Assembly: GCA_033064195.1 (NCBI GenBank) | Contig: JARBJD010000309.1 | Coordinates: 22,577 to 86,576, forward strand | Origin: Blattamonas nauphoetae | Lineage: Eukaryota > Preaxostyla > Oxymonadida | Length of the DNA: 64,000 bases | Reading direction: 5' to 3' | Part shown: positions 38,205-64,000 of the stretch, one piece after another | Layout of the letters: the number at the start of each line of letters is the position of its first letter | How positions within the stretch are numbered: position 1 is the stretch's first letter | Notes under the pieces: generated by a model | Told to the model about the DNA's origin: nothing | Seen by the model: only the letters and a program-made list of their open reading frames with translations | Database searches by the model: none | Program-made: the position numbers and the translations under genes

Positions 38205-39278
38205 ATGGAAGAGATAACACTTGCAACAAACGCTTCCCTTGATGCCAATCTGAATCATTCACGTGATTATCATTCAACTGTGGAACCATTGCAAGAACCA
38301 TTCCTATATTTCGATGAGTACACAGAATTGTCATTTGAGGACAAATCAACCATCTACTGTTCACTTCTTAATCTTGTGAAAGCTGACTACCCTTTTGACG
38401 ATGCCCTTCAGGACAAAGCTATCCGATTCTTGAAGATCCTCGGACCGCAACGGGGTAGACAAGATCAGGCTAATCAACTGGTCACTGACCTCGTTCCCTC
38501 TTCAGCAGGATCGCATGCTGGCTTTGTTGAGAGCATTCTGACTCTGTTATCTTCTCCACACTCGAATGTGGTTGCAGCAGCGTTGTCATTCCTGTATCGT
38601 ATCACAGCTTCCTCATCAACTGAAATTCGATGTCGTCTCGTGGAGTCTGATCTGATCAGCAAAGTGTTAGCAACTTTTCGACCTCACACAATGTCAATCG
38701 CTAGAAATGAAGCGATCATCGACGACCTAAACATTATCGTCAGAGATTGCCTCTTCCTCGCGGATCCATACTATCTCAGAGAACTTAGCATCACTGCAGC
38801 ATTCAGCCAATTCACCCATCGTGAAATGATCTTTCAGAAGGTCGTGCTCCCATTGTCTCAATATGTGGCATTTCTGATCTCAAATCGACTCTTCCTCAAT
38901 GAAGACTTGCTCGACTCATTCATGTCTCTATTAACCGTACTCTTTCAAATCGGTCCGTTTCATCGTCCAACATTGGATTTTGTTGTCGCATCTCCGATTG
39001 TGATGGCATTCTCAAGTTGTCTCTCGTTCGTCGAAGATGAGAGTACTCTCTGGTTCATTCTCAGGGACATTGCACAATCACTCGGAGAATGTACTGAATA
39101 CGGCCCAGAAGTGGTCCAATCTGCAAAACGGATGATGCAAGCTCTGTTTTCGGAAGGCTTCGAAGACACACTCGAACAGATGCTGATGAACGACAAGGAC
39201 GAATATTCTGGTTTCTGTCTTGTTCGTGATTGTCACGATTTCACACAATTGCTGGGATCGAATGTGGAAAAGCTTTAA
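38205..39278 (+). CDS. Intact member of the 357-residue helical family (gene F)
   Basis: 357 residues from the ATG in ctcaatgg. All family blocks are present: EPFLYFDEYTELSFEDKSTI, LVTDLVPSSAGSHAGFVESI, SSTEIRCRLVESDLISKVL, THREMIFQKVVLPLSQY, PFHRPTLDFVVASPIVMAF, FSEGFEDTLEQMLMNDKDE. An in-frame upstream ATG at 38127 would add 26 residues, but the downstream start fits the family leader (tgggatgatcctc about 25 nt upstream). No damage is seen. Its 3' side carries the conserved block and then a mariner. The function is unknown; the pattern of leucines suggests stacked helices. Confidence 0.85.
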   Translation: MEEITLATNASLDANLNHSRDYHSTVEPLQEPFLYFDEYTELSFEDKSTIYCSLLNLVKADYPFDDALQDKAIRFLKILGPQRGRQDQANQLVTDLVPSSAGSHAGFVESILTLLSSPHSNVVAAALSFLYRITASSSTEIRCRLVESDLISKVLATFRPHTMSIARNEAIIDDLNIIVRDCLFLADPYYLRELSITAAFSQFTHREMIFQKVVLPLSQYVAFLISNRLFLNEDLLDSFMSLLTVLFQIGPFHRPTLDFVVASPIVMAFSSCLSFVEDESTLWFILRDIAQSLGECTEYGPEVVQSAKRMMQALFSEGFEDTLEQMLMNDKDEYSGFCLVRDCHDFTQLLGSNVEKL

Positions 39279-41180: not shown

Positions 41181-41182
41181 TA

Positions 41183-42579
41183 CTAAAAACTTGCTCTCCA
41201 CCTATAGCCGTATAGAAAGGAGAACGGCGGAATATGAGTCAAGTTGCATTATGTACATATGAAGGACCAGGGATAGCAGTCTAAGGATTGTTAATAGATG
41301 CACAATTCATGCTGATCTCTCCGCCCGGGAAAAGTCAGTGCACTTCCTGAACTTCACTCAGATTTTACTCATCCATCTCACATTTTTTCGTATTTTACTC
41401 ACTTTTTTGGACCGTCTGAGATTATCTTTGAGAACATTCAAGTCCGTGGCGACTCATTTGCGAAGTGTGAAGTTCACGAACATTTTGAAGAAAAGGAAAG
41501 AACAATACATCAATATAAGATGCACCAATGACAAGAAAACAAAACTAACATATTCTGAAGAGGATCGGAGTCATTTCCAGCGCAGGTATCGAGAGAGGAG
41601 TGGTGTGATCTCAGTTCTGCCTCTTCTCCACATCACCGCTGGTTTGTTGTCATCAAATGAGAACGAGCAGCTTCAAAAAAACCCGAGTATGGTCAGAATG
41701 GATAAATAAAGAGTATCTCAGTCACAAGCGGCGAAGCGTTGTTGGGGATCAGAATCCACAGTTATCATCACAATTTCGTTGAATGAGATGGACTGTCTGG
41801 AGTGTGGATGGCTGGAAAGCAGTTCTTCGTGATTTGGCAGTTTTTCTCTTTGTTTCATCTGTGTGTATCAATTTTCCCAAAATCAGTCTTGGTGGAGACT
41901 GAGGATAGGGAAAGATCCAATTAGTCATCTTTTGAATCTTGCTCCTCCAACTCTTCTTCGTTTTCGTCTTTCTGTTCAGTTTCGGAGACAGTGACATGTG
42001 TTTCGCCGTTTGCAAGTTGTGAGGATCTGCAACGACTACGCACTTTCACAAATCATCTCCAAAATTGTCTCATCACTCAATGATGATGAGAAGATCAATA
42101 ATCATTTGTTTGTTTTTCCATTTCATTCCTCCTTGTTGGCAATTGTCTCGCCCATTTTAGAAAATGATCTTGCCCGAGTCCTCTTTTGAGAATGAGTACA
42201 CGATATCTAGCCACAAGTCCACTTCAGGTATTCCAAATACGTCACCTCTCTTTCACAATGTTTCAAAAATCTGCCTTTCTCATTCCATTAAGCAACGGAA
42301 AAAGTTGATGTCCTGAATCTGTCCTGATATCCAACATTTGAAGTAGTGTTCCTACGATTCACCATACTATCAGGTTTCTTGTTTTCTTTCATACTTTCTA
42401 TGACGAAATTTATTCCTCAAAACAGTCCATTCAAAAGCTTGAAGTTTCATCATTCCAATCCATTTGATGAACATGTATATTCCTATCATGACATAATTTT
42501 CATTCATTCATATAAATTAGATCCTTGAAGAAGGGCTTCAGAGTCTATCGGAAGAGAAACACCCTCTTGTCAACAGTTC
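41183..42579. other. No confident gene
   Basis: Short A+T-rich frames only. A minus-strand acidic peptide frame at ~41.94-42.01 kb (VTVSETEQKDENEEELEEQ) could be a C-terminal exon, but I cannot extend it. Confidence 0.35.
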
Positions 42580-45204: not shown

Positions 45205-45246
45205 GTGAGAATTGACGAACCATGGGAAGATCTTCATTCTGTTTCA

Positions 45247-46700
45247 ATGGGAAACGATTCATCTCGTTCGCAAACGTCTTCTGATGTCGGTTTGAATGCT
45301 TTAGGGGAATCTCATTCAACTATCGACCCAGAACACGAACCATTTCTGAATTTCGATCCAAAGTCGAAATTGTCGTTCACAAAGAAATCGAAGATATATT
45401 GCTCGATTGTTGCCCTCGTGAACGCTGAATACCCTTTTGACAACGCTCTTCAAGACAGAGCCGCCCGGTTTTTAGGGAAGCTCGGATGGAATGTGGGCAA
45501 TGGACAAGACTATGTGATCAAACTCGTCACTAAACTTGTTCCCTCTTCAACTGGATCTCTTTCTGGGTTTGTGGAGAGTATTGCCACTCTCCTGTCATCT
45601 CCCCACTCGACCATAGTTCAAGCAGCGATGTCATTCCTGACAGCAACAACGAGGCGTTCACCTTTGCATATTCAGCTACGTATCATGGAGTCAGATCTCA
45701 TCAGCACTGTTTCTGAGGCTCTTCAAAATCACACACTTTCAATTGCAGGAAATGAAGAGATCATCAACAATCTGAAATTACACATCGACACATTCGCATG
45801 TCTCGCTAGTTCTGATTCTATCAGTATGCTTGACATCACTGATGCAGTAGACATATTCAACCATCGTGAAATGATCCTTCAGAAGGCTTTTATTCCATCG
45901 TCCCAATTTTTGGGATTTCTGATCTCAAATCGAAATCTTCTGAATAGAGACTTGTTCGACTCGTTCATGGCTCTGTTGGACGACCAACTTCGAATATGGG
46001 CAAATACAGAATATAGTGGACCCACTTTTTTCTCACGAATGAACACTTGAAATGACTCCATTAGCTTCGTTTATGTTCAAATAATCTTAAATTACTTAGA
46101 ATTTTTGAGAAAAAAGTTCGGAAAGTGGTTTTACAAATTTATCTACACTTCACCCGATCCTTTTTCCAGTCACTTTTTCACAATGTCTGGTCGTCTTCAC
46201 AGCCCCCCGCTCAAGAGCAGGGGGGGCTGTGAAGACTAGTAGTGAATTCTCAAAAGAAATACAGAAAAAAGGATCTTTGTGAAGTGTTGAAACAAATAAT
46301 GGCCTCGATCGGACCAAAGCGGGCTCTTCTTGTCCGCCCTCAAAATCACTTATTTTTATCATAAATTAATGCTTTATCACAAAATATTATCAGTTTGACG
46401 TTTTTATGTAGGTCCACTATATTCTGTTCTTGCCCGAATATGTCCATTTCATCGTCCAACATTGGAGTTTGTTCTCGCATCTCCGATTGTGATGGCCTTC
46501 ACTAGTTTTCTCACGCTCGTCGAAAAGGAGCATCGTTTCTTCTTAAAAATTGTTTATTATTACTCTATTGTTCACATTTCACAACAATATGTTTTATCAA
46601 CGTGCTCACAGTCTGCCCAAAACACGTGTTTTGATTCTGAACTCTTGGCTCACGATCGTGCTGGTACTTCATCTGAATTCGCTGATGAAAATCAAAGCTG
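45247..46700 (+). pseudogene. Family gene G, interrupted by a hAT-like MITE and degenerate at the 3' end
   Basis: The start is the ATG in gtttcaatgg; the leader motif tgggaagatcttc is upstream. Blocks EHEPFLNFDPKSKLSF, KIYCSIVALVNAEYPF, LVPSSTGSLSGFVESIATLL, DIFNHREMILQKAFIPSS run to residue ~250, where a 436-bp element enters. The frame resumes at 46435 with PFHRPTLEFVLASPIVMAF but loses family similarity after EKEHRFFLK and ends without the usual C terminus or downstream block. Removing the element restores LRICPFHRPTLEF exactly. Confidence 0.8.
45999..46434. mobile_element. 436-bp MITE with 8-bp duplication and a GC-rich central hairpin
   Basis: An 8-bp duplication, cgaatatg, lies at 45991-45998 and 46435-46442. 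Inverted ends read GGCAAATACAGAATATAGTG and GGCAAGAACAGAATATAGTG. A perfect 16-bp stem, GTCTTCACAGCCCCCC with its complement, lies at 46193-46236 around a loop that itself pairs GCTC with GAGC. The 8-bp duplication suggests hAT. No gene. Confidence 0.8.
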
Positions 46701-47863: not shown

Positions 47864-48940
47864 CTACCATCGCGGCTTTTTCACATTCGATCCCAGCATT
47901 TGTGTGATGCAGTGGATATGTTCAACAATCCCGTAGTTACGAAAGCCGTCCAGATTCTTCCGAATCATCTGTTCGAGTGTGTCTTCGAAGCCTTTCGAAA
48001 TCAGAGCTTGAATCATCCGTTTCGCAGATTGGACCACTTCTGGACCTTCTCCATTCCATTCTCTGAGCGAATAGTCGATGTGTTGGAGAGTCATCAAGAG
48101 AGCATGACCATCTTCGATGAACGAGAGACAACTTGTGAATCCCATCGCAATCGGAGATGTGAGCACAAAATCCATTGTTGGACGATGAAATGGGCCGATT
48201 CGAATGAGTGTGCTCACAAAATCCATGAAGTCGTTGAAAACGTCTCCATTGAGGTTGTATCGATTTGTGATCAGAAATGTCACAAATCGTGACGATGGAA
48301 CCACGACCTTCTGAAAGATCAGTTCACGATGGTCGAATACGTCGACTGTATCAGTGATGCCGAGCAGGTTGAGATAGAATGGAGATGCGTGATCGACGAA
48401 TCTGTTGATGTGTCTGAGTAGTTCGCTGAATATATCTTCATTTACTGGAATTGGCAGTGTGTGAGGTTGAACAGTCGTTAACAGTTTGGCGACGAGATCT
48501 GACTCCACAAGACGATCTTGAATTTGGGGTGACGAATACACGAATGTGTTTCGAAGGAACGACAATGTTGCTGTGACCACCGTCGAGTGGGAAGATGACA
48601 ACAGAGTCAGAATACTCGAAACAAAGCTAGAAGGCGATCCAGTTGAAGAGGGAACGAGGCAAGTGACGAATTTTGATGCAAGATCTTGGTCCCACTTCGT
48701 GTTGACGTTCTTCAAGAACTGGGCAGCTCTGTCTTGAAGTGCATTGTCGAATTGGTAGTTGGTTTTCACCAGGGCAACAAGCGAACAATAAATTGCTGAT
48801 TGGTCCTTGAACGACAAGTTTGACTTTGCATCGAAAGTCAGGAAAGGCTCGCTCAATGTGTCCACAGTTGAACGAGATTCCCGTGAATGATTCAAAGAGG
48901 CATCATTGGTCTTGTTCAAATGTTCTGATTCTCTTTCCAT
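47864..48940 (-). CDS. Intact member of the 357-residue helical family (gene H)
   Basis: 358 residues from the ATG at 48940 in a tttcaatgg context. Blocks: EPFLTFDAKSNLSFKDQSAI, LVPSSTGSPSSFVSSILTLL, HSTVVTATLSFLRN, LVESDLVAKLLTTVQPHTLP, DHRELIFQKVVVPSSRF, PFHRPTMDFVLTSPIAMGF, SKGFEDTLEQMIRKN. No stop or frameshift. Its leader motif is cut by MITE copy B, whose 8-bp duplication (atcatccc) lies only 16 bp upstream of the ATG. The natural promoter is thus displaced by 521 bp, and the gene may be silent or driven from the MITE. Function unknown, as for the rest of the family. Confidence 0.85.
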   Translation of the reverse strand: MERESEHLNKTNDASLNHSRESRSTVDTLSEPFLTFDAKSNLSFKDQSAIYCSLVALVKTNYQFDNALQDRAAQFLKNVNTKWDQDLASKFVTCLVPSSTGSPSSFVSSILTLLSSSHSTVVTATLSFLRNTFVYSSPQIQDRLVESDLVAKLLTTVQPHTLPIPVNEDIFSELLRHINRFVDHASPFYLNLLGITDTVDVFDHRELIFQKVVVPSSRFVTFLITNRYNLNGDVFNDFMDFVSTLIRIGPFHRPTMDFVLTSPIAMGFTSCLSFIEDGHALLMTLQHIDYSLREWNGEGPEVVQSAKRMIQALISKGFEDTLEQMIRKNLDGFRNYGIVEHIHCITQMLGSNVKKPRW

Positions 48941-48963
48941 TGAAACTGGACTAGGATCATCCC

Positions 48964-49484
48964 CAGGCATCTGAGTAGTCCCATCAAAATAGGTAAAACT
49001 GGGATCAATTGATGTCAGTGCCTAAATTTGGACTGAGATCAAATTTCAACTCTTTTCCTTTGAGATTTTCTCATTATCACTTCATTAATCATGTTCAATT
49101 CACTTCTTGTTTTCACATAATGCTCTTCAATATTTCAGACAGCTCTTATTTCCCAAAAACACGCACGATCACAATCACCAACACTTCTTTTTTCGATGTA
49201 TTCCCTTCATTGACTTTAGTCAGTGAGAAAAAACCATCAAAGAAGACATAATAACGCATTATCGACTTGGTTTTATAATTATTGTTGTAGAACAAACTGA
49301 AACAGCAGCACCCAAAGTTTGCATTTTCATGATCTATGAAGTGACCATTTTCCTTTTTACTTTTTTTTCCATTCAAATATCATATATAAGAAGACTTTTT
49401 TGAAATGAAAGAAACGAAATGGTATTGTAGGTATTTAGTGGGATCAGATCCGACTGGGATCACTGGGATCAAATCAGAAGCCTG
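48964..49484. mobile_element. 521-bp hAT-like MITE, copy B (inverted relative to A)
   Basis: An 8-bp duplication, atcatccc, at 48956-48963 and 49485-49492; ends CAGGCATCTGA and, inverted, CAGGCTTCTGA. The duplication is part of the family leader motif tgggatgat, so the insertion is in the 5' leader of gene H. Copies A and B differ in their duplications and are therefore separate insertions. Confidence 0.88.
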
Positions 49485-52230: not shown

Positions 52231-52379
52231 TCTTCGCAGGTTAATACAAAGTAGAGATATAGGGTGGTGGTTGAGTAGTTGATAAGGATAAGTGTAGGGA
52301 AATAGGTGGCATAGACAAGGGTGATTAGGCATAGGTGAAAAGATAGGTGAGGGGTGAAGGAGGCATTGATGAGTGGGGT

Positions 52380-52715
52380 ATTGATGTGTGATATTGATGA
52401 GTGGCATGGTTGAGGAGACATGATTGTGTGGACATGGTTGAAGAGGCATTGATGTTGAAATACGTGTCATGAGTGAATGTGGGTTGGTGAAGAGACATAA
52501 TTGAGGGGGGGGCATTGTTGAGTGGCATTGTTGAGTGGCATTGTTGTGTGGACATTGTTGAGGTGGCATTGTTGAGGTGGCATTGTTGTTGAGATACGTG
52601 AAATAAGTGTTTATGAGTTGGTGAAGGATATTGTTGTGTGGACATTGATTTATAGGCATTGATTGGTGGACATTGATGGGAGATGCATTGGTGCTGGGAA
52701 TTGATGGATGAACAC
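52380..52715. repeat. GTTGAGTGGCATT-type minisatellite
   Basis: Imperfect short repeats of ggcattgttgagtggcatt-like units, about a dozen copies. The apparent minus-strand proteins here (strings of NNATQQCHSTMPP) are products of the repeat, not genes. Confidence 0.75.
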
Positions 52716-52721
52716 AATGGC

Positions 52722-53570
52722 GATTGACTGGCCTAGGTGGCCTAGGTGGATCGCGAAATTAAATTGGTTTTTATTTTTGGAGGTCCACGGGTCCACAAGT
52801 CCACATGTGCAGAGGCACGGTTCGGATGAATATAAATGATAGGGACATTGATGATGGTGGATTTGGTGGAATTTTCATTGGTGTTGAAATTCATGGGTGT
52901 TTTCCAATGGCGATTGACTGGCCTAGGTGGCCTAGGTGGATCGCGAAATCAAATTGGTTTTTATTTTTGGGAGGTCCACAGGTCCACAGGTCCACGGGTC
53001 CACAGGTCCACATCGTGTAAAAAATAATGGAAATATCAGTTGTTCTAGCTCATTGCTGTTATATTACATGAATCATGTTTGGTGGACTTTTTATTTTGAT
53101 GCAACAATTATCTCTATTTGACCTAGGTCGTTGATAAATGAAAGGAGCATTATTGAAAAAGTCATCTGTGGTTTGTTCTTTTTTGTTCATTGCTGTCATC
53201 TTACATAAATTATATGTATTTCGGAGTTTTCATTGGTGTTGGAATTCATGAGTGTTTTCCAATGACGATTGACTGGACCAGGTGGCCTAGGTGGATCGCG
53301 AAATCAAATTGGTTTTTATTTTTGGAGGTCCACAGGTCCACAAGTCCACATGTCCACATCGAGTAAAAAAATAATGGAAATATCAATTGTTCTAGCTCAT
53401 TGATGCTTTATTACATAGTTTTTATATCAAGCGACTTTTTCATTGGTGTTGGATTTCATGAGTGTATTCCAATGGCGATTGACTGGCCTAGGTGGCCTAG
53501 GTGGATCGCGAAATCAAATTGGTTTTTATTTTTGGAGGTCCACAGGTCCACAAGTCCACATGTCCACGAT
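52722..53570. repeat. Four direct repeat blocks with iterated GTCCACA motifs
   Basis: Blocks at about 52724-52806, 52908-53014, 53266-53357 and 53475-53567 share ggcctaggtggatcgcgaaat, ttggtttttatttttgg and then 3-6 tandem copies of a 9-bp unit GGTCCACA(A/G). Spacers of ~100-260 bp also share ttcattggtgttg words. The structure resembles iterons, or the terminal repeats of a mobile element, and leads directly into the virus-like element. Confidence 0.75.
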
Positions 53571-53650
53571 CTAGTTAGAAATTATGGAACTATCCTGTAT
53601 GGGTTTTCTTTTTTTGCTCATTGCCGTCATATTACATAAATTATATGTAT

Positions 53651-53990
53651 TGTGGACTTTTATATTTTGATGCTACAATTTTCTCCATTTGACTTAGGTC
53701 ATTGATAAAAGAGAATAGCACAATTGCAAAGATCGTCTGTTCTTTGCTCAAAGCAGTCATATTACATTGATATTTATATGTGGACTTTTATATTTTGATG
53801 CTACAATTTTCTCCATTTGACTTAGGTCATTGATAAAAGAGAATAGCACAATTGCAAAGATCGTCTGTTCTTTGCTCAAAGCAGTCATATTACATTGATA
53901 TTTATATGTGGACTTTTATATTTTGATGCTACAATTATCTCTATATGTCTTAGGTCAGTATATAAAAGAAAATGTAAAGACTGTAGATAA
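53651..53990. repeat. 128-bp tandem repeat, 2.6 copies
   Basis: Units 53651-53778 and 53779-53906 are virtually identical, each beginning tgtggacttttatattttga; a third partial unit continues to ~53990. A diverged copy lies near 53.08-53.2 kb. Confidence 0.8.
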
Positions 53991-54021
53991 ACATCAGTAT
54001 AAGGCCATTTCTGAGCTCCTG

Positions 54022-54110
54022 TGGACTTGTGGACTTGTGGACCTGTGGACCTGCCAAAATAAAAACCAATTTAATTTCGCGATCCACCTAGGCCACCTGG
54101 GCCACTTTTG
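54022..54110. repeat. Inverted copy of the GTCCACA repeat block at the element's left edge
   Basis: The same block as at 52.7-53.6 kb in opposite orientation: gtggacttgtggacttgtgg followed by aaaaccaatttaatttcgcg and ccacctaggccacc. It lies 43 bp from the stop codon of the primase-helicase gene, so it may be the left terminus of the virus-like element. Confidence 0.7.
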
Positions 54111-54152
54111 GACAATCAATAGTTCTTCAAAAATATATCTACATTGTTGTGC

Positions 54153-56624
54153 TTATTCTAGACTGTCTTCTTCATCGATTTCTGACTCAAGAGCAGACCT
54201 TCTAAGCAGTTCTGCATACTTTGGATCGATCACGTAGCACCATACTCTTGTTTTATTCACTGTGACTCTCTTTCTGATGCAATGCTCATTTAAATCCATC
54301 TGGAACGTCTTGAGTTTTTTGTAATATTCAGGCATGAGTTCAGCTGCATATGAGCATGGCATTCCTTTCTCCAATTCGTCAATGTGTTCCAGACAAAAGT
54401 CTCCTATTGTTGATCTAGATACTTCTTGGAGTAGACATCTTGCATCAGTGTTTGGCAATTGTCTTGGATTGAATTTAGAAATGTCCCTTTGTCTGAAGTA
54501 GGTCAACAAATGTGAGTAGAATTCAGGAGAGAATGAGCGAATGAGGTTTAGGAAATAGTTGGCATCATCCTTACGTTTATTGGACACTTTGCACACACAG
54601 TAACGTCTATCGTCGACTTCAATCTTCACTGGATATGCGTTGTTTGTACAGAAGATTAGATTGGCTACATTCTCGGCATCACGACGGGCGATTCCTTTCT
54701 CGTTTGCTCTGAAACTTGTATCTGATATTATGGATTTGAGAGCATCAAAATTGGACATTCTTTCCTCACCAGCATTCTTCAGTTCATTGCAGACAATCAG
54801 CATCTTTCCTTCAATCACTGTATTGAATGTACCACATAGTTCCTGAATATCTGTGACGTTTGGAGCAGAGTATCCACGCATTAGTTCACAGAGCACATTG
54901 GTCCACACATTCTTGCCAATTCCTTGCATTCCCTTCAAGATTATGACAGATGCTGTCTTCTGACCTGGATTCTGAATGACAAAAGAAATCCAATTCAAGA
55001 TGAAGTTGTACAATTCGTCACTGTTGTCGGAAATGATCTCTTTGGTGAAATCTAAGAATGGTTGAACAAGCTCATTGTTTACTGCGTCCACAAATGGGTA
55101 TTTGTATCCTTGAAATAGTGAGAACATTTCTGGATTGTCACTGATGAATCGAATGCCATTGACCATGAAACGATTACGATTGTCCTCGAATAGGCTTTGG
55201 CAATTGAATACTTTCACTTTCTTTGGATCCTCGTTTGGTATGGTCACTTTAATTGATTTCAACAATCTTAGGACATTGCTTTCTTTCTGAACATTGACGC
55301 AATAGCAGAGATCAAGGGAACTGTATTCTTTCACAATGCAAAGCAACGATACTTCAATACAGCGAAGAACTTTCAGCAGATCTCTCAGAACTTCCTTTTC
55401 TGATTTGTATTCTTTATTCGTGGCCTTTTTTCTGATCGTAGAGAAGTCAAATGGAGACAGAAGATTAATTTTTTCTTTGTATGGCTCATCATTGCTTTGC
55501 TCAAGGCATTGGTCCTCCTCGGATTCATCAATGCTGTCAAATACATCTGAGACATCGTAGTCTGTGAGAGGAATAACGAGTTCATTATTGTAGTATTTCT
55601 CGTTGTGGATTCGAATGATTTTGACGAGTACTCCTGGATGCGAAATATTTGATGCGTATCTGATTCTTTGAGCATCCCAATTCATTTTTGTATTCTCTGT
55701 TAATGTATTGTGAGCATAGACGTCTTGGTACGTTTGGTCCAGCATCTCGTCAGTGAATCCATCAATTTGTCGCAATGAATTGAGTCCAGCAAACAATGGC
55801 AACAGGGAAACTTCATCCTCGAGTGAACGAGAGCCAGAATCATTGTGGATTGTCAGTCCTGTCAATCCTTTTCTGATTACCTCTGCTTGCTTCAAGGAAT
55901 ACTGTTGAATTGAATCACTATCGAATGTAGGAACTTTTGGACTCTCTGTCTTTGGAGGCTTGACTGCTGGCTTCTTCTCTGATGGAATTGGCTTCAATGC
56001 AATACACAGATTGGACAATACATCCGACAATGATGCCAGTTTAAAGAGCTGATTAAAATCATTCAATGTTGAATATGTATGGATTTTATTCTTGCCTTCG
56101 ACCTTCCTTTGCACTCTTGATTTTGGTTGCACAATCCAGCGCAGATTGGAGTCTACACAAGCGAACAAATCCACATCGTATTGCTCAGTTTTCTTTACCT
56201 TCACCATTGAATTCTTTTCCAGTTTGTATCCGTCAATATCGCAGTAGATGTGAAGGCCACCAGAACCAGTGACGACTAATCCGACATTTTTAGGTAGTAC
56301 ATCAATCACTGATTGTCTGATTTTGGTTTTGGTTTGTTCATTAGCATCCTTATTCAAGATGTCAATGTCCACGACTGCTAGATTGGCCACATGTGCAATA
56401 TTTATCGCTGTTCCAGTCTTTCTGTTTCCAGCAGTATCGATTGAAGCACCTTCGCTATATTTCTTGTAGTCATATATTGGGACTTCATGAGCTCTCAAAC
56501 GATCATTCAAAGATTGTATTTCGACTGGAGTGCCGTTGAACAATGCTTCGAAATGATCGTCGATCAATCCAGGATTAATGGCACAAATGTCATTGACTTT
56601 TTTGTCTTCAACTTTTGTGTTCAT
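54153..56624 (-). CDS. Archaeo-eukaryotic primase fused to superfamily 3 helicase
   Basis: 823 residues. The N-terminal AEP primase has its three motifs: DxD in VVDIDIL (Asp86, Asp88), the histidine motif in SGGLHIYCD (His125) and a third acidic motif YDVDLF (Asp150/152). The C-terminal SF3 helicase has Walker A GMQGIGKN (565-572), Walker B MLIVCNE (Glu614), motif C LIFCTNN (656-662) and an arginine pair DDRR (~674) as likely arginine finger. Such fusions start and drive replication of small DNA viruses and plasmids, making primers and unwinding the origin as a hexamer. The start lacks the T-rich motif of the other genes and has a TTAAAATCTAATATTTTATC leader instead, possibly an early-type promoter. 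No stop or frameshift. Confidence 0.88.
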   Translation of the reverse strand: MNTKVEDKKVNDICAINPGLIDDHFEALFNGTPVEIQSLNDRLRAHEVPIYDYKKYSEGASIDTAGNRKTGTAINIAHVANLAVVDIDILNKDANEQTKTKIRQSVIDVLPKNVGLVVTGSGGLHIYCDIDGYKLEKNSMVKVKKTEQYDVDLFACVDSNLRWIVQPKSRVQRKVEGKNKIHTYSTLNDFNQLFKLASLSDVLSNLCIALKPIPSEKKPAVKPPKTESPKVPTFDSDSIQQYSLKQAEVIRKGLTGLTIHNDSGSRSLEDEVSLLPLFAGLNSLRQIDGFTDEMLDQTYQDVYAHNTLTENTKMNWDAQRIRYASNISHPGVLVKIIRIHNEKYYNNELVIPLTDYDVSDVFDSIDESEEDQCLEQSNDEPYKEKINLLSPFDFSTIRKKATNKEYKSEKEVLRDLLKVLRCIEVSLLCIVKEYSSLDLCYCVNVQKESNVLRLLKSIKVTIPNEDPKKVKVFNCQSLFEDNRNRFMVNGIRFISDNPEMFSLFQGYKYPFVDAVNNELVQPFLDFTKEIISDNSDELYNFILNWISFVIQNPGQKTASVIILKGMQGIGKNVWTNVLCELMRGYSAPNVTDIQELCGTFNTVIEGKMLIVCNELKNAGEERMSNFDALKSIISDTSFRANEKGIARRDAENVANLIFCTNNAYPVKIEVDDRRYCVCKVSNKRKDDANYFLNLIRSFSPEFYSHLLTYFRQRDISKFNPRQLPNTDARCLLQEVSRSTIGDFCLEHIDELEKGMPCSYAAELMPEYYKKLKTFQMDLNEHCIRKRVTVNKTRVWCYVIDPKYAELLRRSALESEIDEEDSLE

Positions 56625-57573
56625 TCTTTCTAAGGAGATAAAATATTAGATTTTAAAAAAAGTTAAGCGTTTGTTTTTTCTGACACGCACAATTCACTGA
56701 TATTTCGATCAGAACGCACCAGAATGACGTGCACACTCTCCCCATGCATCTGTGGCATCGGTGGATTGTTTTGGTCATTTTTGATTTTTTCACTTTTTTT
56801 CACCACCATATGTGAAAATACAGAAATTTATTTTTACAAATTAACCTTATTTTTTGAGACCATCCAAAACTGTTCCAACAAGGTCAATATCGGCCTGGTG
56901 AGCTTATTTATGATGTGTTTCGTGTGATCTGAGAAGTATTTCGGGGGTTATGGGTGATCTCAAAATTAACGCTGATTTATTTTTTATCGATTTTTTTAAT
57001 ATGTATATGAAGAGGAGATCCAGACAAAGTTTGAAAAATACAATTTTGAGCTTCGACCATACAAACCTCTTCCAAGGTCAATCCCGATCTGCTGAGTTCA
57101 TTTCTGATGTTTTCAGAGTGATCTGAGCATTAGTTCGGGAGTTATGGGTGATCCAAAAAACAAACGTTTAACTTTTTTCAATTTCTAATTTTTTAATTTG
57201 GATATGAAGAGGAGTTCCAGAACAAGTTCAAGTATTGAGCCCTCGACGTAATGTTCCAAGATACTCAGGCAAAATGGTGCCCTGGTGACTGATGCGCAGA
57301 TCGAATTGGAGGTTGGATTGGAGACGGATGATCGAAAGATTGTCCCCGGGGTTCATGTTGGCCTCACTTAGATGTGACCGTAAATCATGCCCACCCAAGA
57401 CTTAACCCTTCAAGGACTTCGCCAGCAGCAGTCATTTAGAAGGATCGCGATAGAACGATCCCCAAAGGAGTATCGGGGTGTCTATAGGAAGCTCGTACGA
57501 ACGTGGGAAGGCTCTTCTCGACGGTTATTTTTGCCATCTTCAATGAACAAAAACAAAAATATGCTAACACCAT
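56625..57573. other. Long spacer of the virus-like element with diverged direct repeats
   Basis: Two and a half diverged copies of a ~185-bp unit lie at 56.85-57.29 kb (gttccaacaaggtcaatatc / cttccaaggtcaatcccgat; gttatgggtgatc; atatgaagaggag). The segment at 57.3-57.55 kb is more G+C-rich and has a short plus-strand frame (FRRIAIERSPKEYRGVYRK) of unknown meaning. As the only large gap it is the best place for an origin or control region. Confidence 0.5.
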
Positions 57574-57984
57574 TCAATATTCCAACATCAGATCAACCAG
57601 AAATTCATAATACTCTTTGATTATTTTTCCATTGATTGTCTCTGATGTTTCCATCTCGATTGATTCACCAGAACTGTCTTTGAACCAGATCTTCACAATT
57701 GATTGTCGAGTACTCAGTTCCCACTTCTTTCGCTTCGCAATCTGTTCGTTACAGAAAGCAACATATGAATCATTGTGAGCATCTGTCTGGATCCAATCAG
57801 CGTGAATGGTGTAATTCTGAGGAATATCTTTTGAAATAACCGTAGAAGTCTCACCAATCTCTTCCTTCACATGGATGAGTTTGCAGTCAAGAAAGTGAAC
57901 GTATTTTTGTTTTCTAGAATTGGTAAAATCATGAGGGAATTGAGCAGTGTGAGAATTCTGAATTGAGAAATAGCGTTTGACCAT
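57574..57984 (-). CDS. Hypothetical viral protein, 136 residues
   Basis: Starts at the ATG at 57984 (MVKRYFSIQNSHTAQFPHDF); the T-rich motif lies 13 nt upstream rather than 6. The protein is soluble, mixed alpha/beta by eye, with a charged C-terminal helix (KEYYEFLVDLMLEY). No recognised motif. It lies 42 bp downstream of the second capsid-like gene and before the long spacer, so it is the last gene of the late-type cluster. Confidence 0.7.
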   Translation of the reverse strand: MVKRYFSIQNSHTAQFPHDFTNSRKQKYVHFLDCKLIHVKEEIGETSTVISKDIPQNYTIHADWIQTDAHNDSYVAFCNEQIAKRKKWELSTRQSIVKIWFKDSSGESIEMETSETINGKIIKEYYEFLVDLMLEY

Positions 57985-57997
57985 TGCTGTTTTTAGC

Positions 57998-58010
57998 AAA
58001 AATAAAAAAT
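57998..58010 (-). promoter_or_regulatory. ATTTTTTATTTTT motif, 13 nt before ATG
   Basis: Minus strand ATTTTTTATTTTT, identical to the motif before the two capsid-like genes, but with a longer spacer to the ATG at 57984. Confidence 0.6.
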
Positions 58011-58026
58011 TAAAACTGTTTAATCA

Positions 58027-59703
58027 TTAATATCCTCTCTTCACTTCTTCGAATGCTTCTTGGAGTCGACGATCAATGACATATCGCACTCGTGGTTGTC
58101 CATTCTCGATCCAGAATAGCCAGTATGTTGCTTGATGTAATGCCAAAATCGGTGGAGGCGGACCTTCAGGAGTTGATGTGAAATATGGATCTTGTTCACC
58201 TTGTTTAATTGGTGTTCCTCGGTAGACAATGTTGACAGACTCTGATGTTGAGATTCCTTCTTCTCCACCTGCAATTTCACTTCGATCTGTTGGAACCATG
58301 AATGTGAAAGAAGTCGCATCTGTGACAGCTCTATTCCTCTTGTATTCGATTCCTTTGAAGTCAAACGTACGTGGCATACAAATGGAATTTTCAAATTCTT
58401 CTGTTGCTGAACAACCTATGAAATCACCATTCACCATCATCATTTGATAGAACTCTGGTGAGATTGTTGACATTGGGAAATTGGGAAAGTTGGATCCAAG
58501 CATTTCGAATTGACCAACATAATGAGGATTTCTGAAGACTGTACATTCGTTTGGTCTTTCAGGGAACAAGCACATAAGATTCATGAGATTGTTGAGTTTG
58601 ATACTGATGTTTGACCTCACTCCCATGGCATTTGCTTTTGATTGGAATGATTGTGTGTCAATTCTTTCTGCTTTCAGGACATACAATGTCTTTGAATACG
58701 TGTTGATGAGAGCTTGTTTTGTTGCATCAGTGATTTGATATCCATAGCAAATTGATGTTACTTTGTCCACTGATGAATTCAGAACAGATGAAACGACTGA
58801 TTCGGTACGATACTCGGCAATTGGAGCATCCTCATAAACATCAAATTGTAATATCGGATTTCCCAATTGTGTGAATTCCTGTGTCACATTGGTGTATTCT
58901 CCTTCACGCATAAAATCCATCTGAGGACGATTTGTCATTTCACCCAATAACCTATCTGGCTTTCGATCGCGAGCATTCTCAAGATTTTTTCTAATGACTG
59001 TTGATAATCGAATCGGACAATACACGAGTGAATCAGTAGTCAAATGAAATCTCAAACGCAGATTACCAAAGATGGAATTTGGATACTGATCAAAGGTACT
59101 CAGTGGAAGGAGATTCACAAATGGAATCACCAACGGAATAGTAAATGTGATCGTTGGAGTCTCTGGATCCTCGATTGGAGAGTGATAGTATCCACAGACA
59201 CTCGGATCCATCCTCTGTACATTTTCCCAAAGACTGTAGCAATGCTTCATATTGTTTTTCTCTTCATACGACTTGAAAGTGTGATACAGAAATGATTCGT
59301 GAACATGATTGTTCTGAAGTGAATTGTCAATGATGTTCCCTTGACTGTCGACGAGTCTCATGTCTCGAATGGCATCTGATGATGATTTGTATCCGTAGAA
59401 CATTCCGTAGACTTCAGCTCCTCCTTGAAAATGCATTGTTGGTTGATGAAACGGAACAGTAACGGTGAGATCAATTCGTAAATGACTCTTCGCAAACTCA
59501 GTCACATCATGTCCGTCATAGCACAATGGAACTTCAATCTCGTCTCCAATTCTACATGGCATGGGAGGATTTGTTGGATGCACTTCTTGGATGGAGTAGA
59601 TGTGAGGTTCTGAATCCCACTGTTTTGGCATATATGATTGCACTTCAATTTGTTCAATTAATGTCGATGTTGGTTTGGATTGATTAGATCTGAAACTTCT
59701 CAT
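58027..59703 (-). CDS. Capsid-like protein 2 (558 residues)
   Basis: Paralogous to the 622-residue neighbour. Shared features in order: an IQEVHP segment followed by GDEIEVPLCYDG at ~35-55, SIFGNLRLRFHLTTDSLVYC at ~210-230 (neighbour: CLFGDLKLSVHINEDAFVCC), a cluster of aligned aromatic residues around ~100-190 (MFYGYK, HCYSLWENV), and a C-terminal PPPPILALHQATYWLFWIEN (neighbour: PPAPILATTATTWWVLRFSN). Alternating strand-rich segments of this size fit jelly-roll virion proteins, either a major capsid pair or capsid plus penton (inference; no domain was matched). Intact, with the conserved T-rich motif 6 nt before the ATG. Confidence 0.65.
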   Translation of the reverse strand: MRSFRSNQSKPTSTLIEQIEVQSYMPKQWDSEPHIYSIQEVHPTNPPMPCRIGDEIEVPLCYDGHDVTEFAKSHLRIDLTVTVPFHQPTMHFQGGAEVYGMFYGYKSSSDAIRDMRLVDSQGNIIDNSLQNNHVHESFLYHTFKSYEEKNNMKHCYSLWENVQRMDPSVCGYYHSPIEDPETPTITFTIPLVIPFVNLLPLSTFDQYPNSIFGNLRLRFHLTTDSLVYCPIRLSTVIRKNLENARDRKPDRLLGEMTNRPQMDFMREGEYTNVTQEFTQLGNPILQFDVYEDAPIAEYRTESVVSSVLNSSVDKVTSICYGYQITDATKQALINTYSKTLYVLKAERIDTQSFQSKANAMGVRSNISIKLNNLMNLMCLFPERPNECTVFRNPHYVGQFEMLGSNFPNFPMSTISPEFYQMMMVNGDFIGCSATEEFENSICMPRTFDFKGIEYKRNRAVTDATSFTFMVPTDRSEIAGGEEGISTSESVNIVYRGTPIKQGEQDPYFTSTPEGPPPPILALHQATYWLFWIENGQPRVRYVIDRRLQEAFEEVKRGY

Positions 59704-59709
59704 TTATAG

Positions 59710-59722
59710 AAAAATAAAAAAT
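59710..59722 (-). promoter_or_regulatory. ATTTTTTATTTTT motif, 6 nt before ATG of capsid-like gene 2
   Basis: Minus strand ATTTTTTATTTTT, then CTATAA, then ATG. Same spacing as at 61625, 62283 and 62907. Confidence 0.75.
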
Positions 59723-59749
59723 ACAATATCATTATTTTCTTTCGCTCAT

Positions 59750-61618
59750 TTATGATTTCTGTATTCCGAGTTCATTGTGCAATGCTTTCAATGTATGATT
59801 TGGATAATATTCAACTTTCGGTTCGCCATTGCTGAATCGTAATACCCACCACGTTGTTGCAGTTGTTGCGAGAATCGGTGCTGGTGGATGCGTAAATGTT
59901 GTCATATTACCACCACTTTCACTTGGGTTGTAAACATTATAGTATGTGTCAATATTACCTTGATAGATCGGTTGAGATCTCAAAGTGACTGGAACATTCT
60001 GACCTCTGGAACTGATTGAATCATTACAGTTTGTTGGACATCCACTTCTCTGAGTCGGAAAGCACAAAAGGAAGTCAGTATTGTCATGAATTGGTCGTAC
60101 TCTTGTCATTGTTTCATTTGGATATGTTCCGTCACCAGTGAGTTTTTCTTCAACGAGAGAATCCGTGAGTGATCGCTCCAAATCATCTGGAACAGTGAGG
60201 TATGAATCAAGGTTGAGAGTTGACAATGCAAACTGGTAGAAACGAGCTCCAATAGTTGTAGTCGGTTGTTCAGGATAGTATTTGTTGAGTAGATTCACCT
60301 GGATATTCTTCTGCATTGGATTGTGAAAACAAGTGACTTCATTATCGTATTGACGAAAGAGAAGCATGATATCCTTGGCATTCACGAGAACCATTTGCTG
60401 AGTGCAATCAATACCTGATGGAGTCGGTGTCTTCTGAAATGGATAGAATGAGATCTTTTCTGCTGGAATTGTTCCTGGACGATCCTGATACATCTGCTTC
60501 AGATTCTCTTTCGCAATTTCTTTCATTTTGTATCCAGAACTCATGCAATACACATCATCAATTTGATACTCGGTGATGTTTAGTGAGATGTACTGATCCA
60601 CGTATTCTGGTTCTTTTGTGACAGTTCCAGCTGAATTATACACAATATCTTGAGTTACTGTTGGTTGCAGCAATGATTGGCCAATCTGAACGAAATTCTT
60701 AGTGCATGAGGTAACGAGATTGTTTAAGAAATATTGACGATGCTGAATACAATCCGCAATTGATGCTTTTATCTTAGGCGCTGCAGCGGTCCCAGTAACG
60801 ATTAATGAAAGTGTGTTCTTCAGAGTGAGTTCAGGATTAACAGGACAACAAACGAATGCATCTTCATTGATGTGCACACTCAATTTCAGATCTCCGAAGA
60901 GACACCGAGGATAGTCAGTCATCCCTGAGAATATCAGAAGATCTTCAAGATTGATTGACACACGAATTGGTACATCGATTGTGTCTTGAAACACTCCTGT
61001 TCCAGACGTCGTTGTGAAGTCTGATAAAGGAATGTAGACACCAGCAACAGATTCGTCATGATTCCATGCATTCTGCCAAGGTGTGTGACAATGTTTTCGA
61101 TTCTCCAATTGACTCTTCGGTTTGATCATATTGTAGATGTGCGATTCCATTGATACGTCATTGGTTGTTGTGCTGATGATTCTCTGATTGTTGTGAAGAA
61201 CAGTAAGGTCACGAAAGATTGATGCCGAATGCTTGAGTCCAACAAAGATGAATATCCTTTCATTCATGTACGAGCCAATTTTACCTGCAGTTTGTTTCCA
61301 GTTGTTGACTTTCAATGTAGCTGTCATCGTGAACGTAATGAATGAATCATCAATTTGACAGATGTCCTGATTACCAGTGAGTGGAATGATTATTTCCTGT
61401 CCTTTGTAGAATCTTGAATTCTCAGATGGTTTCAATTCCTGAATAGAAGTACTGTGTGCTCCATCATTCAGAAGGTAATTGATGTGATGCTCAGACATGA
61501 GTTGCTGTTGTATTTGACCAATGTCATCTCGGGTGTATTTGATTGATCCCGTGCTGTTTCCAGTCAAAGATGTCGCTCCAGTTCTTTTGTTTGTCAGATG
61601 TGTAATATGCGAGTTCAT
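59750..61618 (-). CDS. Capsid-like protein 1 (622 residues)
   Basis: The larger of two adjacent paralogues. Landmarks: IQELKP then GQEIIIPLTGNQD at ~60-80, IFVGLKHSASIFRDLTVL at ~125, RKHCHTPWQNAWNHDESVAG at ~175, YPRCLFGDLKLSVHINEDAF at ~240, PAPILATTATTWWVLRFSNG near the C terminus. The large strand-rich protein without enzyme motifs, next to small basic and glycine-rich proteins, suggests a virion major capsid. Jelly-roll fold is inferred, not shown. Two divergent full-length copies side by side suggest both are needed in one capsid, as in viruses with paired hexon or hexon-penton sets. T-rich motif 6 nt before the ATG; 46 bp separates it from the next gene. Confidence 0.65.
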   Translation of the reverse strand: MNSHITHLTNKRTGATSLTGNSTGSIKYTRDDIGQIQQQLMSEHHINYLLNDGAHSTSIQELKPSENSRFYKGQEIIIPLTGNQDICQIDDSFITFTMTATLKVNNWKQTAGKIGSYMNERIFIFVGLKHSASIFRDLTVLHNNQRIISTTTNDVSMESHIYNMIKPKSQLENRKHCHTPWQNAWNHDESVAGVYIPLSDFTTTSGTGVFQDTIDVPIRVSINLEDLLIFSGMTDYPRCLFGDLKLSVHINEDAFVCCPVNPELTLKNTLSLIVTGTAAAPKIKASIADCIQHRQYFLNNLVTSCTKNFVQIGQSLLQPTVTQDIVYNSAGTVTKEPEYVDQYISLNITEYQIDDVYCMSSGYKMKEIAKENLKQMYQDRPGTIPAEKISFYPFQKTPTPSGIDCTQQMVLVNAKDIMLLFRQYDNEVTCFHNPMQKNIQVNLLNKYYPEQPTTTIGARFYQFALSTLNLDSYLTVPDDLERSLTDSLVEEKLTGDGTYPNETMTRVRPIHDNTDFLLCFPTQRSGCPTNCNDSISSRGQNVPVTLRSQPIYQGNIDTYYNVYNPSESGGNMTTFTHPPAPILATTATTWWVLRFSNGEPKVEYYPNHTLKALHNELGIQKS

Positions 61619-61624
61619 TTTATC

Positions 61625-61637
61625 AAAAATAAAAAAT
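61625..61637 (-). promoter_or_regulatory. ATTTTTTATTTTT motif, 6 nt before ATG of capsid-like gene 1
   Basis: Minus strand ATTTTTTATTTTT, then GATAAA, then ATG. Confidence 0.75.
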
Positions 61638-61659
61638 CAAATTAATGTTTTCTGTACAG

Positions 61660-61959
61660 TTACTTTTTCTTTTTTGGTTTCTTCGCTTTTGGTTTCAGCT
61701 TTTCTTCCAGTTTCACAATTTCTCCTCTGAGCTTGTTCGCAACTGCTGTATTTCCTTCATTGATTGCTTGTTCGTATTGTGCCATCTTTTCTGCATGGAT
61801 TTGCTTGTCCGATTTCACGTCTGGAATCATCTCAACACCTGTCTGTGCTACCTTCGAAATCAGTGGTCCAACGAAGGGAATGAGATTCAGAAATGGAGCT
61901 CCAACTCTGAGTATGTTTTTACCGACTGCTGCTAATTTTGATATCCAACCTGGTGCCAT
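61660..61959 (-). CDS. MAPG miniprotein 2 (99 residues), basic C terminus
   Basis: Starts MAPGWISKLAAVGKNILRVG, continues with a hydrophobic Gly/Pro stretch (FLNLIPFVGPLISKVAQTG, ~25-43), a short charged helix and a very basic tail KPKAKKPKKKK. Amphipathic N terminus plus poly-lysine tail resembles small internal virion proteins that touch membrane or DNA (adenovirus pVI/pVII-like in concept only). It shares the MAPG start with the next gene upstream. The leader has CATAAATG but only a weak version of the T-rich motif. Confidence 0.65.
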   Translation of the reverse strand: MAPGWISKLAAVGKNILRVGAPFLNLIPFVGPLISKVAQTGVEMIPDVKSDKQIHAEKMAQYEQAINEGNTAVANKLRGEIVKLEEKLKPKAKKPKKKK

Positions 61960-61994
61960 TTATGAAGAATTAAAATATTTGATTACAACATTTT

Positions 61995-62276
61995 TTATTG
62001 TCTGAATTGTATCATTGGATTTTGTGACATGTTTCCACCACCTCCAAGATATTGATTTACTGCTTGGTTTTCTCCATTCGATCTTCGAGATTGTTGGTAT
62101 TCCCCCATCATTCCGCCTAAGCCACTAAGTATTCCTCCTGCTGTTTGTCCAAATTTGTTGTTTGTCTGTGAAAGTAATCCACCACCGACTTGAAGCAGTG
62201 TTGGAGCAAGAGGTTTGATGAATTGAAAGAATTGCTTGCCGATATTTTTGAGTTTGTTGAAACTTCCTGGTGCCAT
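61995..62276 (-). CDS. MAPG miniprotein 1 (93 residues), glycine-rich
   Basis: Starts MAPGSFNKLKNIGKQFFQFI, then LLQVGGGLLSQ and AGGILSGLGGMMGEY, Gly-rich amphipathic segments, with a Gln/Asn-rich end. The same start and similar hydrophobic pattern as miniprotein 2 suggest duplication and division of labour. A minor virion or membrane-active role is inferred. T-rich motif 6 nt before the ATG. Confidence 0.65.
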   Translation of the reverse strand: MAPGSFNKLKNIGKQFFQFIKPLAPTLLQVGGGLLSQTNNKFGQTAGGILSGLGGMMGEYQQSRRSNGENQAVNQYLGGGGNMSQNPMIQFRQ

Positions 62277-62282
62277 TTATGT

Positions 62283-62295
62283 AAAAATAAAAAAT
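62283..62295 (-). promoter_or_regulatory. ATTTTTTATTTTT motif, 6 nt before ATG of miniprotein 1
   Basis: Minus strand ATTTTTTATTTTT, then ACATAA, then ATG. Confidence 0.75.
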
Positions 62296-62312
62296 ACAAT
62301 TCATTATTATTT

Positions 62313-62900
62313 TTATCTCGGAATTGCTTTCGTCAATGAAATTCCATAATTGAGGATTGTGTTGTAAGCTTCATTGAAGGCAATGCTCATATCTTTTCCA
62401 CCAACAAGGATCTTGAAAATTGTTCGAAAGATTGGTAGTTTATTAAGACATAGGCACTTGTCAGACAAATCATCCAATTCAATCACTACATCGTTGATTC
62501 CAGTGAGTGTAGCGATGAGAGCACATAAATCACTTTGGTTTGTGATCAGTCTCTTCGATGGTTCAATGAGATTATTCAGAAGTTTCTTTTCACAAGCAAA
62601 AGCGTTCTTGTACACTAACAATAGTTGGTCTTTGAATGCTGCAATATTCGAAGTGTATTCTCGAAGTGGTATTGAACGTGTTTGAATTGGTGCTGATGGA
62701 TAGATCTCTAGTGGTGGTGGATCATAAAGACCTGGTTCATTGTTCATTTCAACATTCGCGCTTTGTTCAGTACGATCTTCGAGTTTTGATCTTCCCGAAG
62801 TTGATCCTTTATTGTCGATGATGACATTGTTGGTGATTGATGTTGGAACTGATGAAGAACTTGTGTGTTTTGTAAATTGACAACTGAGAATTGGCTGCAT
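62313..62900 (-). CDS. Hypothetical viral protein, 195 residues
   Basis: Starts MQPILSCQFTKHTSSSSVPT; the first ~90 residues are Ser/Thr/Pro-rich and probably disordered (YDPPPLEIYPSAPIQ contains a PPPLEIY stretch resembling a viral late-domain PPxY-like motif, inference). The rest is helical (DQLLLVYKNAFACEKKLLNN). No recognised family. Position between the 251-residue gene and the miniproteins suggests a structural role. T-rich motif 6 nt upstream. Confidence 0.65.
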   Translation of the reverse strand: MQPILSCQFTKHTSSSSVPTSITNNVIIDNKGSTSGRSKLEDRTEQSANVEMNNEPGLYDPPPLEIYPSAPIQTRSIPLREYTSNIAAFKDQLLLVYKNAFACEKKLLNNLIEPSKRLITNQSDLCALIATLTGINDVVIELDDLSDKCLCLNKLPIFRTIFKILVGGKDMSIAFNEAYNTILNYGISLTKAIPR

Positions 62901-62906
62901 TTTAGT

Positions 62907-62919
62907 AAAAATAAAAAAG
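62907..62919 (-). promoter_or_regulatory. CTTTTTTATTTTT motif, 6 nt before ATG of the 195-residue gene
   Basis: Same 12-base core TTTTTTATTTTT, then ACTAAA, then ATG; only the outermost base differs (C for A). Confidence 0.7.
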
Positions 62920-62942
62920 TCATATATTCATTTTTGTTTTGA

Positions 62943-63560
62943 TCAACTACTGAGATACATGACGTCAGTTTGACCTAGTGTTGCGTTTAAATTCTGTTCA
63001 TTCGGAAGTGTGTCCAACACTCGAGGTCCTTTATAGTCAACTGGAGCAATGAGGTCTTCTGGAGTGATATTATTGAGTTTAAGTAAATCAACACCAGCAG
63101 CTTTTGGAAATGGATAGGAATTCAAGCGTTTTGTTACAATCTTCATGAATGATTTCTTTTTCAGTAAACCATTTGGATCAGCATAGAAATTATAATCCCA
63201 AATGTCACTTAGAAATGGAATTAATACTCCTCGATTCATATGAGTTGTTAATCCTGAACGAATTTTTGCGAAATCACCAAGAGAATACACGTTCATTGCT
63301 TGGTTTGGTTGACCAGCTGTTTGACTTGAACAACGAATATTAAGGTGTTTCATAGCTTCATTCGCAATCAATGATGATACTTGAAAAGTGCTCATTTGCT
63401 CAGGTGGCATATCCGGATTGTCATTCCATATTTGAGTTTTCTTGTACTCTTTCCACTGTGCATCAATTCTTGGACGTTGATTCGGTTTAAATGAAGCATA
63501 TTTTGTTTGTTTTCGTCCTTGTTTTGTTGGATTTGCAGCTGTCCAAGCGTTTCGATATAG
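62943..63560 (-). CDS. Hypothetical viral protein, 5'-truncated
   Basis: The minus-strand frame from about 63548 (AWTAANPTKQGRKQTKYASF) to VMYLSS reads as genuine protein: a basic N-terminal segment, then RIDAQWKEYKKTQIW and VLIPFLSDIWDYNFYADPN. Upstream of ~63560 the frame continues to 63698, but through repetitive G/C-run DNA giving an implausible peptide, and no T-rich motif precedes any ATG. The real start has therefore been lost. Family not recognised; a nucleic-acid-binding or minor virion protein is possible. Confidence 0.6.
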   Translation of the reverse strand, partial: LYRNAWTAANPTKQGRKQTKYASFKPNQRPRIDAQWKEYKKTQIWNDNPDMPPEQMSTFQVSSLIANEAMKHLNIRCSSQTAGQPNQAMNVYSLGDFAKIRSGLTTHMNRGVLIPFLSDIWDYNFYADPNGLLKKKSFMKIVTKRLNSYPFPKAAGVDLLKLNNITPEDLIAPVDYKGPRVLDTLPNEQNLNATLGQTDVMYLSS

Positions 63561-64000
63561 TAGTAAAATAACCCGGCGAGGGTAAAATAACCCGGGGTGA
63601 AAACCCCCTTTTTTGGATCCCTCTTTCCGTCCATCCCATATTTCTCGGAACCAAAATTTTTTTGGGTCCCACTTTTTTTTCCATAATGTTTGTCTCAACT
63701 CCGAGTATCCATCGAGGTAGAAATCGAACCTCCAAAATAGGATTCTGGGCCGGGGGTGCCTATTTCGGAACCATATTTTGGCCTATTTTTGACCCATTTT
63801 TGGCTCCTAAATAGGAGGTCCTTAACATTTAAGCTAAGAGGATCCGAACTTCACGACCACTTTTCTCCACGCTTGTTCAAAATTTTTCTTTCTCGTTTCA
63901 TTTCTGGTTGTTTGGGATGTTTTCTCTCGAAATCACAATTTTTTGAAAATGAAAAATCCTGGGGGACCTGGGTGGAATTCAGGGTCAAAACTGATTTCCC
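63561..64000. other. Flank right of the truncated virus-like element
   Basis: Contains a direct repeat taaaataacccgg (twice within 63567-63597) and short repeated words (cctatttttgacccatttttgg, ctcctaaataggag). No gene is seen. It is probably another repeat into which, or through which, the element was broken. Confidence 0.5.

Follow-up and report, generated by a model that had tools for sequence, protein, structure and literature searches.

Whether the Mavericks of Trichomonas vaginalis are transposons or viruses depended on a capsid gene that escaped notice until 2023; Bellas et al., 2023 (PMC10120064) described a Metamonada group of capsid genes including those of T. vaginalis (DUF4106) and Streblomastix strix. 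On replication, PMC11071308 describes a polymerase (PolB) of TP-vOTU-EXO-PALM layout and AEP-S3H replicases, and proposes that exonuclease and helicase compensate for each other; there, and in PMC12220804, AEP-S3H is described as replacing the polinton polymerase in Polinton-like viruses (PLVs). Here we report that a 64,000-nucleotide stretch of the genome of the oxymonad Blattamonas nauphoetae (C234:22577-86576; hereafter the window) very probably contains the left-hand ~11.3 kb of a Polinton/Maverick-type DNA virus that has integrated there. We assign it to this type because other copies in the genome add a packaging-type ATPase, PolB, an rve-type integrase and another primase-helicase gene in inverted orientation.

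The organism has been cultured, and its genome is given as 88,537,989 bp in 879 contigs in PMC10703272, in the main text of which the strings 'virus', 'viral' and 'transpos' are absent; a literature search reaching few subscription papers returned no paper on such elements in Blattamonas. The element would be a second metamonad case after T. vaginalis, and one in which contigs are long, intact copies are numerous and the capsid candidates are under strong purifying selection; with a host that has been cultured, the virus-or-transposon question becomes directly testable. Our searches covered 88,311,006 bases in 837 contigs.

Gene order and termini of the full element

Where both ends carry the same 6-bp duplication, the full provirus is 24.7 kb long and has ~5-kb terminal inverted repeats (TIRs), each with a primase-helicase gene. 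In the fuller copies the left TIR (repeat array, primase-helicase) is followed by leftward genes for proteins of 136, 558, 622, 99, 93, 195 and 342 amino acids (aa), and then by rightward genes for an ATPase, a 110-aa protein, PolB and an integrase, with a 91-aa open reading frame (ORF) on the opposite strand, before the right TIR (primase-helicase, repeat array). The turn between the two halves is seen at locus L032, where a 295-aa P-loop protein lies upstream of the 342-aa gene and divergent from it, and beyond it stand the 110-aa ORF, the opposite-strand 91-aa ORF and a very long ORF; at loci L030-L040 and L055-L068 the junction from the 342-aa gene through the ATPase to PolB is found in collinear order. 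By a count made by eye, 16 contigs have a primase match 8.9-15.0 kb past the start of PolB and on its strand, and primase matches in both orientations flank one element in contigs C175, C433 and C236.

The element of C433, pieced together from loci read separately (L050, L010, L057, L069 and L070), continues after the integrase gene into a spacer with a 3.8-kb insert between two arm pieces and then into a second, inverted primase-helicase gene, the reading frame of which is broken near the gene end. Its two arms are 94-97% identical over the long matches compared. The far arm of C433 matches the window at 95-98% over 54280-57536 and in patches of 72-87% in the outer part, and the two arms have a common terminus (window position 52253), sharing sequence up to ...CCACCCTATATCTCT and diverging beyond it. 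This 25-base terminus recurs at 40 genome sites with at most two mismatches (33 exact), against 0 for the reversed control.

Both ends were read in three insertions, C236, C36 and C433. In C236, the interior of which is known through matches only, GCCATC stands on both flanks with 24,684 bp between; in C36, with its interior unread, TCCAAT stands on both flanks of termini 1.8 kb apart. The element has TIRs and, at these two insertions and not at C433, target duplications within the 5-6 bp of Polintons and Mavericks. Of 29 ends for which the distance from the end of the primase-side match to the terminus was computed, 28 give 0.6-6.6 kb and one, in C12, gives 18.5 kb; these figures are rough because matches stop at different points. 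The end arrays themselves vary in length between copies, roughly 0.6-6.6 kb (the window, C5, C175 and C628).

The copy in the window

The provirus copy in the window begins at its outer terminus and is interrupted at 63557 by an abundant repeat. The sequence-only reading had recognized here eight collinear A+T-rich genes, and both points are borne out by eight collinear minus-strand ORFs spanning 54153-63698 and by a GC content of 37.7-40.0% in 2-kb windows from 54001 on, versus 39.2-51.9% in windows before 52 kb. Its limits of 54022 to 63560 need revision: on the left the element runs on to the terminus, and on the right the 251-aa ORF is the tail of the 342-aa gene (L032:1344-2369, minus strand), cut by the repeat and missing about 21 codons in frame relative to 11 other copies compared. 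A 141-aa ORF begins with TTG; its translation more likely starts from the ATG at 57984, giving 136 aa. Apart from the primase-helicase, the ORFs of this copy have no significant family match. The same reading had seen neither PolB nor integrase and had proposed a compact virus unlike Polintons. The absence holds for this copy and fails for the fuller ones, in which PolB, an rve-type integrase, an ATPase, long TIRs and, at two of the three insertions read, 6-bp duplications are found; the compact appearance arose because the window copy is truncated.

Replication genes

The helicase half of the 823-aa primase-helicase matches DUF5906 (2.7e-19) and a VapE-like family (1.3e-7) in Pfam and the primases 6k9c/6k9e in PDB (4.7e-14); in the AEP half the motifs were read by eye, with no profile match, so that the primase-SF3 fusion proposed earlier is supported by profile for its second half.

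The long ORF, as read in C433, encodes a polinton-type family-B DNA polymerase (DNA_pol_B_2, 1.2e-9), in which the exonuclease motif DIET and the polymerase motifs were recognized by eye. Between its exonuclease and polymerase parts sits an HNH/endonuclease VII-type domain (PHROG 1035, 6.5e-12, residues 545-634 of the 1149-aa piece at L069:2-3448), which is conserved in the 18 relatives aligned, with four cysteines and several other residues invariant. Cys/His residues in the N-terminal part are reminiscent, by eye, of the vOTU pattern of PMC11071308, many relatives falling outside the simple search pattern. At E <= 0.001, PolB has 78 relatives, including P0053 of T. vaginalis (42%, 350 members) and, with a match of 40%, S. 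strix, which contributes seven proteins. In a FastTree phylogeny of 78 rows (P0081 excluded, root drawn for convenience only), it clusters at support 96 with 7 rows from S. strix and 7 from metagenomes, with T. vaginalis on the other side. The PolB genes of C404 (L054:630-5336, ~4.7 kb) and C603 (L056) are interrupted by foreign DNA, an insertion that is probably shared by descent because the site is identical in both.

The integrase (430 aa) matches rve (1e-5) and IS481 (3e-6), with a weak match to a Ty3 integrase (0.044). The 295-aa ATPase has a Walker A motif (GNRGSGKTY) and a Walker B-like motif (MILLDDC), both identified by eye.

Mavirus-type virophages also carry an rve integrase. As described in PMC11071308, they likewise combine PolB and an SF3 helicase in one element; the same description sets Mavirus apart, its PolB having lost most of the exonuclease and its S3H being a separate gene. 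PLVs with AEP-S3H share the AEP-like/SF3 fusion as a replication gene, but in the descriptions cited it takes the place of PolB, whereas here the SF3 half is accompanied by a full exonuclease-type PolB. Because these two are held together, the element cuts across the exonuclease-helicase compensation proposed in PMC11071308. The PLV of Oxyrrhis described in PMC12721341 resembles it in its size of ~25 kb, its enlarged PolB, its location in a protist genome and its unrecognized minor capsid protein and protease; that PLV is described as having a tyrosine recombinase and an SF1H-PolB fusion, in contrast to the rve integrase and embedded HNH domain found here. With the T. vaginalis Mavericks and the Metamonada group of PMC10120064, the element shares a PolB of one family (42% to P0053) and many copies in a metamonad genome. 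It differs from the T. vaginalis Mavericks, in a comparison of general features, in having two capsid candidates without a DUF4106 match (controls silent) and a primase-helicase inside the TIRs.

This siting of a replication gene inside inverted repeats is one part of what makes the element unusual, the others being the exonuclease-type PolB with its embedded HNH domain and the two paralogous capsid candidates, the sole relatives found being in Streblomastix and one metagenome.

Capsid candidates and small proteins

The 558- and 622-aa proteins are paralogous over their whole length (26% over 569 columns, E 1e-46) and are candidate capsid proteins. The sequence-only reading had paired them in this way, and had also listed the two MAPG miniproteins, of 93 and 99 aa, which prove to be paralogous too (none of 1000 shuffles scored as high); profile searches with the two large proteins returned no capsid match. 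Neither the capsid candidates nor the genome has a match to DUF4106, the T. vaginalis capsid family, and neither do 14 control genomes; a search with the Pfam double jelly-roll (DJR) family likewise gave no match in the control genomes. By Chou-Fasman comparison the candidates could not be told apart from the enzymes, and its result was not used.

Among 5.8 billion proteins, in a search that scores only candidates with short words in common, the 622-aa protein has two relatives, or three with a four-member alignment: P0001 and P0003 of S. strix, and P0002 of an ENA metagenome. Scans of viral contigs and of prokaryote genomes gave no relatives, and no case of paired capsid genes came to light in a literature search. 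In Streblomastix a miniprotein-like stretch is fused ahead of a capsid-like protein: residues 1-74 of P0001 are similar to the 93-aa miniprotein (a score matched by 0 of 1000 shuffles), with the 99-aa miniprotein falling short of that (295 of 1000).

Two classes of start motif

Just upstream of the starts of the 195-, 93-, 622-, 558- and 136-aa genes stands TTTTTTATTTTTNNNTAAA, with five window sites against 0.00 expected. The starts of the 99-aa, 342-aa, ATPase, 110-aa and integrase genes end in TAAATG and lack the full run, while the primase-helicase, PolB and 91-aa ORF have a common, distinct context (...AGAAA(A)GA..ATG). The late-type motif has 792 sites genome-wide and its 558-type form 463, with 0 each in the reversed control; these counts are not counts of elements, since 10 pairs among the 100 sites listed lie less than 3.2 kb apart by our count. 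For the 11 scored 558-type genes on contigs up to C152, the start coincides exactly with a listed motif site in 8 and does not in 3. The two contexts, compared among genes of the element, probably correspond to late and early gene classes.

Copy number and selection

Merged match lists give at least 191 distinct structural modules on 160 contigs, from which we extrapolate to several hundred in the genome; these are not ordinary single-copy host genes. The view of the sequence-only reading, of a virus-like element in an oxymonad-type genome, is supported, and the copies are many and mostly intact. Directly downstream of the 622-aa gene, a listed 558-type gene was found in at least 34 of 71 copies. 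Among scored copies, which are best matches and hence biased to intact ones, 60 of 71 for the 622-aa gene and 66 of 78 for the 558-aa gene are without stops (stops in 11 and 12, respectively).

Purifying selection acts on all ten genes tested. Median pairwise dN/dS, from 11-24 copies per gene that are mostly best matches, ranges from 0.053 to 0.131 (622 aa, 0.095; 558 aa, 0.075; 195 aa, 0.064; 93 aa, 0.053; 99 aa, 0.074; primase part, 0.116; ATPase, 0.062; 110 aa, 0.061; PolB N-terminal part, 0.111; 342 aa, 0.131). The intact reading frames noted in the window fit these low values. A host gene family was considered and ruled out by copy number, inverted repeats and target duplications.

Compared with contigs C433, C397 and C590, the window copy is closest to C397 in the 622-aa gene and to C433 in the 558-aa gene, a difference that suggests recombination between elements.

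Proposed life cycle and alternative explanations

A Polinton/Maverick-type virus of this composition would exist as linear DNA inserted by the rve-type integrase. Replication would begin at the DNA ends and be the task of the early-class genes (primase-helicase, PolB and 91 aa), with PolB using a protein primer and the primase-helicase serving to unwind and prime the DNA. The late-class genes would supply a capsid formed by the two large paralogues together with small proteins, the ATPase would package DNA, and the progeny would infect or re-integrate. Siting the primase-helicase in the TIRs gives two copies, which gene conversion could hold alike. We tentatively suggest, at somewhat below even confidence, that oxymonad Polintons combine a shell of two diverged major capsid proteins, from a family unrecognized in other viruses, with two replication systems (an HNH-bearing exonuclease-type PolB and a TIR-duplicated primase-helicase) and an early/late switch by two start motifs.

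Several observations weigh against identification as a Polinton/Maverick-type virus. The element is known here from sequence alone. The 558- and 622-aa proteins gave no capsid match in Pfam, PHROGs, PDB or the Pfam DJR family. No Ulp1-type cysteine protease was recognized among the ORFs scanned in Pfam, where a diverged one could escape, and the candidates for a minor capsid protein (136, 195 and 342 aa) have no significant family match. The rve match of the integrase, at 26.2 bits, is under the Pfam cut-off of 32.6; the ATPase has weak matches to a terminase (PHROG, 8.6e-4) and to Zot (0.0065, below the Pfam cut-off) and none in PDB; and no PolB relative was found in the viral contigs scanned. 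The flanks of C433 (AAGGAA and AAGATC) do not match.

The silence of the large paralogues toward capsid profiles, PDB and DJR proteins, together with the missing DUF4106 (on which the controls are silent too), would suit a virion-less, self-replicating Maverick-type transposon in which these proteins act inside the cell. We consider this unlikely in view of their size, their place beside a packaging-type ATPase, their late-type motif and the strong purifying selection on both, and the T. vaginalis elements were likewise thought capsid-less until the work of Bellas et al., 2023 (PMC10120064). Decay could also be argued, since the window copy is truncated, some scored capsid-gene copies contain stops and the C36 termini lie so close together; that all copies are dead fossils of a once active virus is nevertheless very unlikely, given the predominance of copies without stops, even allowing for their bias to intact ones, and dN/dS far below 1. 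Least credible of all is a separate compact lineage without PolB and integrase, to which another element has been joined in the PolB-bearing copies: the window copy shows its genes only, and C433 alone could be composite because its flanks differ, but the collinear junction across many loci, the recurrent order from PolB to the far primase and the matching duplications of C236 all speak for one element.

Features of the window and neighboring sequences

Table 1. Positions of provirus features and of the interrupting repeat within the 64,000-nucleotide window.
Feature	Position	Strand	Basis or remark
Left TIR, ~5.3 kb	52253..57536	.	contains repeat array and primase-helicase gene; host DNA left of 52253
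Terminal array, tandem and inverted repeats (8-bp, 14-bp, 128-bp and about 200-bp units)	52253..54104	.	length varies between copies
AEP-like/SF3 primase-helicase, 823 aa	54153..56624	-	early-type start context; AEP motifs by eye
136-aa protein	57574..57984	-	no significant family; minor capsid protein a guess from place and size
Late-type start motif, 136-aa gene	57991..58009	-	window motif search
558-aa capsid candidate, paralogue of 622-aa protein	58027..59703	-	no capsid profile match
Late-type start motif, 558-aa gene	59703..59721	-	motif search, window and genome
622-aa capsid candidate	59750..61618	-	no capsid profile match
Late-type start motif, 622-aa gene	61618..61636	-	window motif search
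99-aa MAPG miniprotein	61660..61959	-	ORF and selection data
93-aa MAPG miniprotein	61995..62276	-	resembles N-terminus of Streblomastix capsid-like protein P0001
Late-type start motif, 93-aa gene	62276..62294	-	motif search, window and genome
195-aa protein, without significant family	62313..62900	-	ORF, Pfam scan, selection data
Late-type start motif, 195-aa gene	62900..62918	-	window motif search
C-terminal remainder of 342-aa gene	62943..63557	-	listed 251-aa ORF reads on into repeat
Abundant repeat interrupting the provirus, not part of it	63556..64000	.	copies 97-99% identical

The last window position coincides with the end of the contig, at its base 86,576. Copies of the 445-bp repeat found there often form inverted pairs ~1.4 kb long (for example, C35:62140-63530 and C138:81582-82986), and its appearance is that of a mobile element whose inverted ends are long. 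Elsewhere in the window, a 410-aa ORF at 39969-41201 resembles, by eye, a mariner-type transposase. A DLVPSSxGSxxGF-like motif, recognized by eye, is common to six further ORFs (17024-17734, 26968-27789, 28522-29595, 38127-39278, 45205-46050 and 47864-48970), apparently members of a local gene family.

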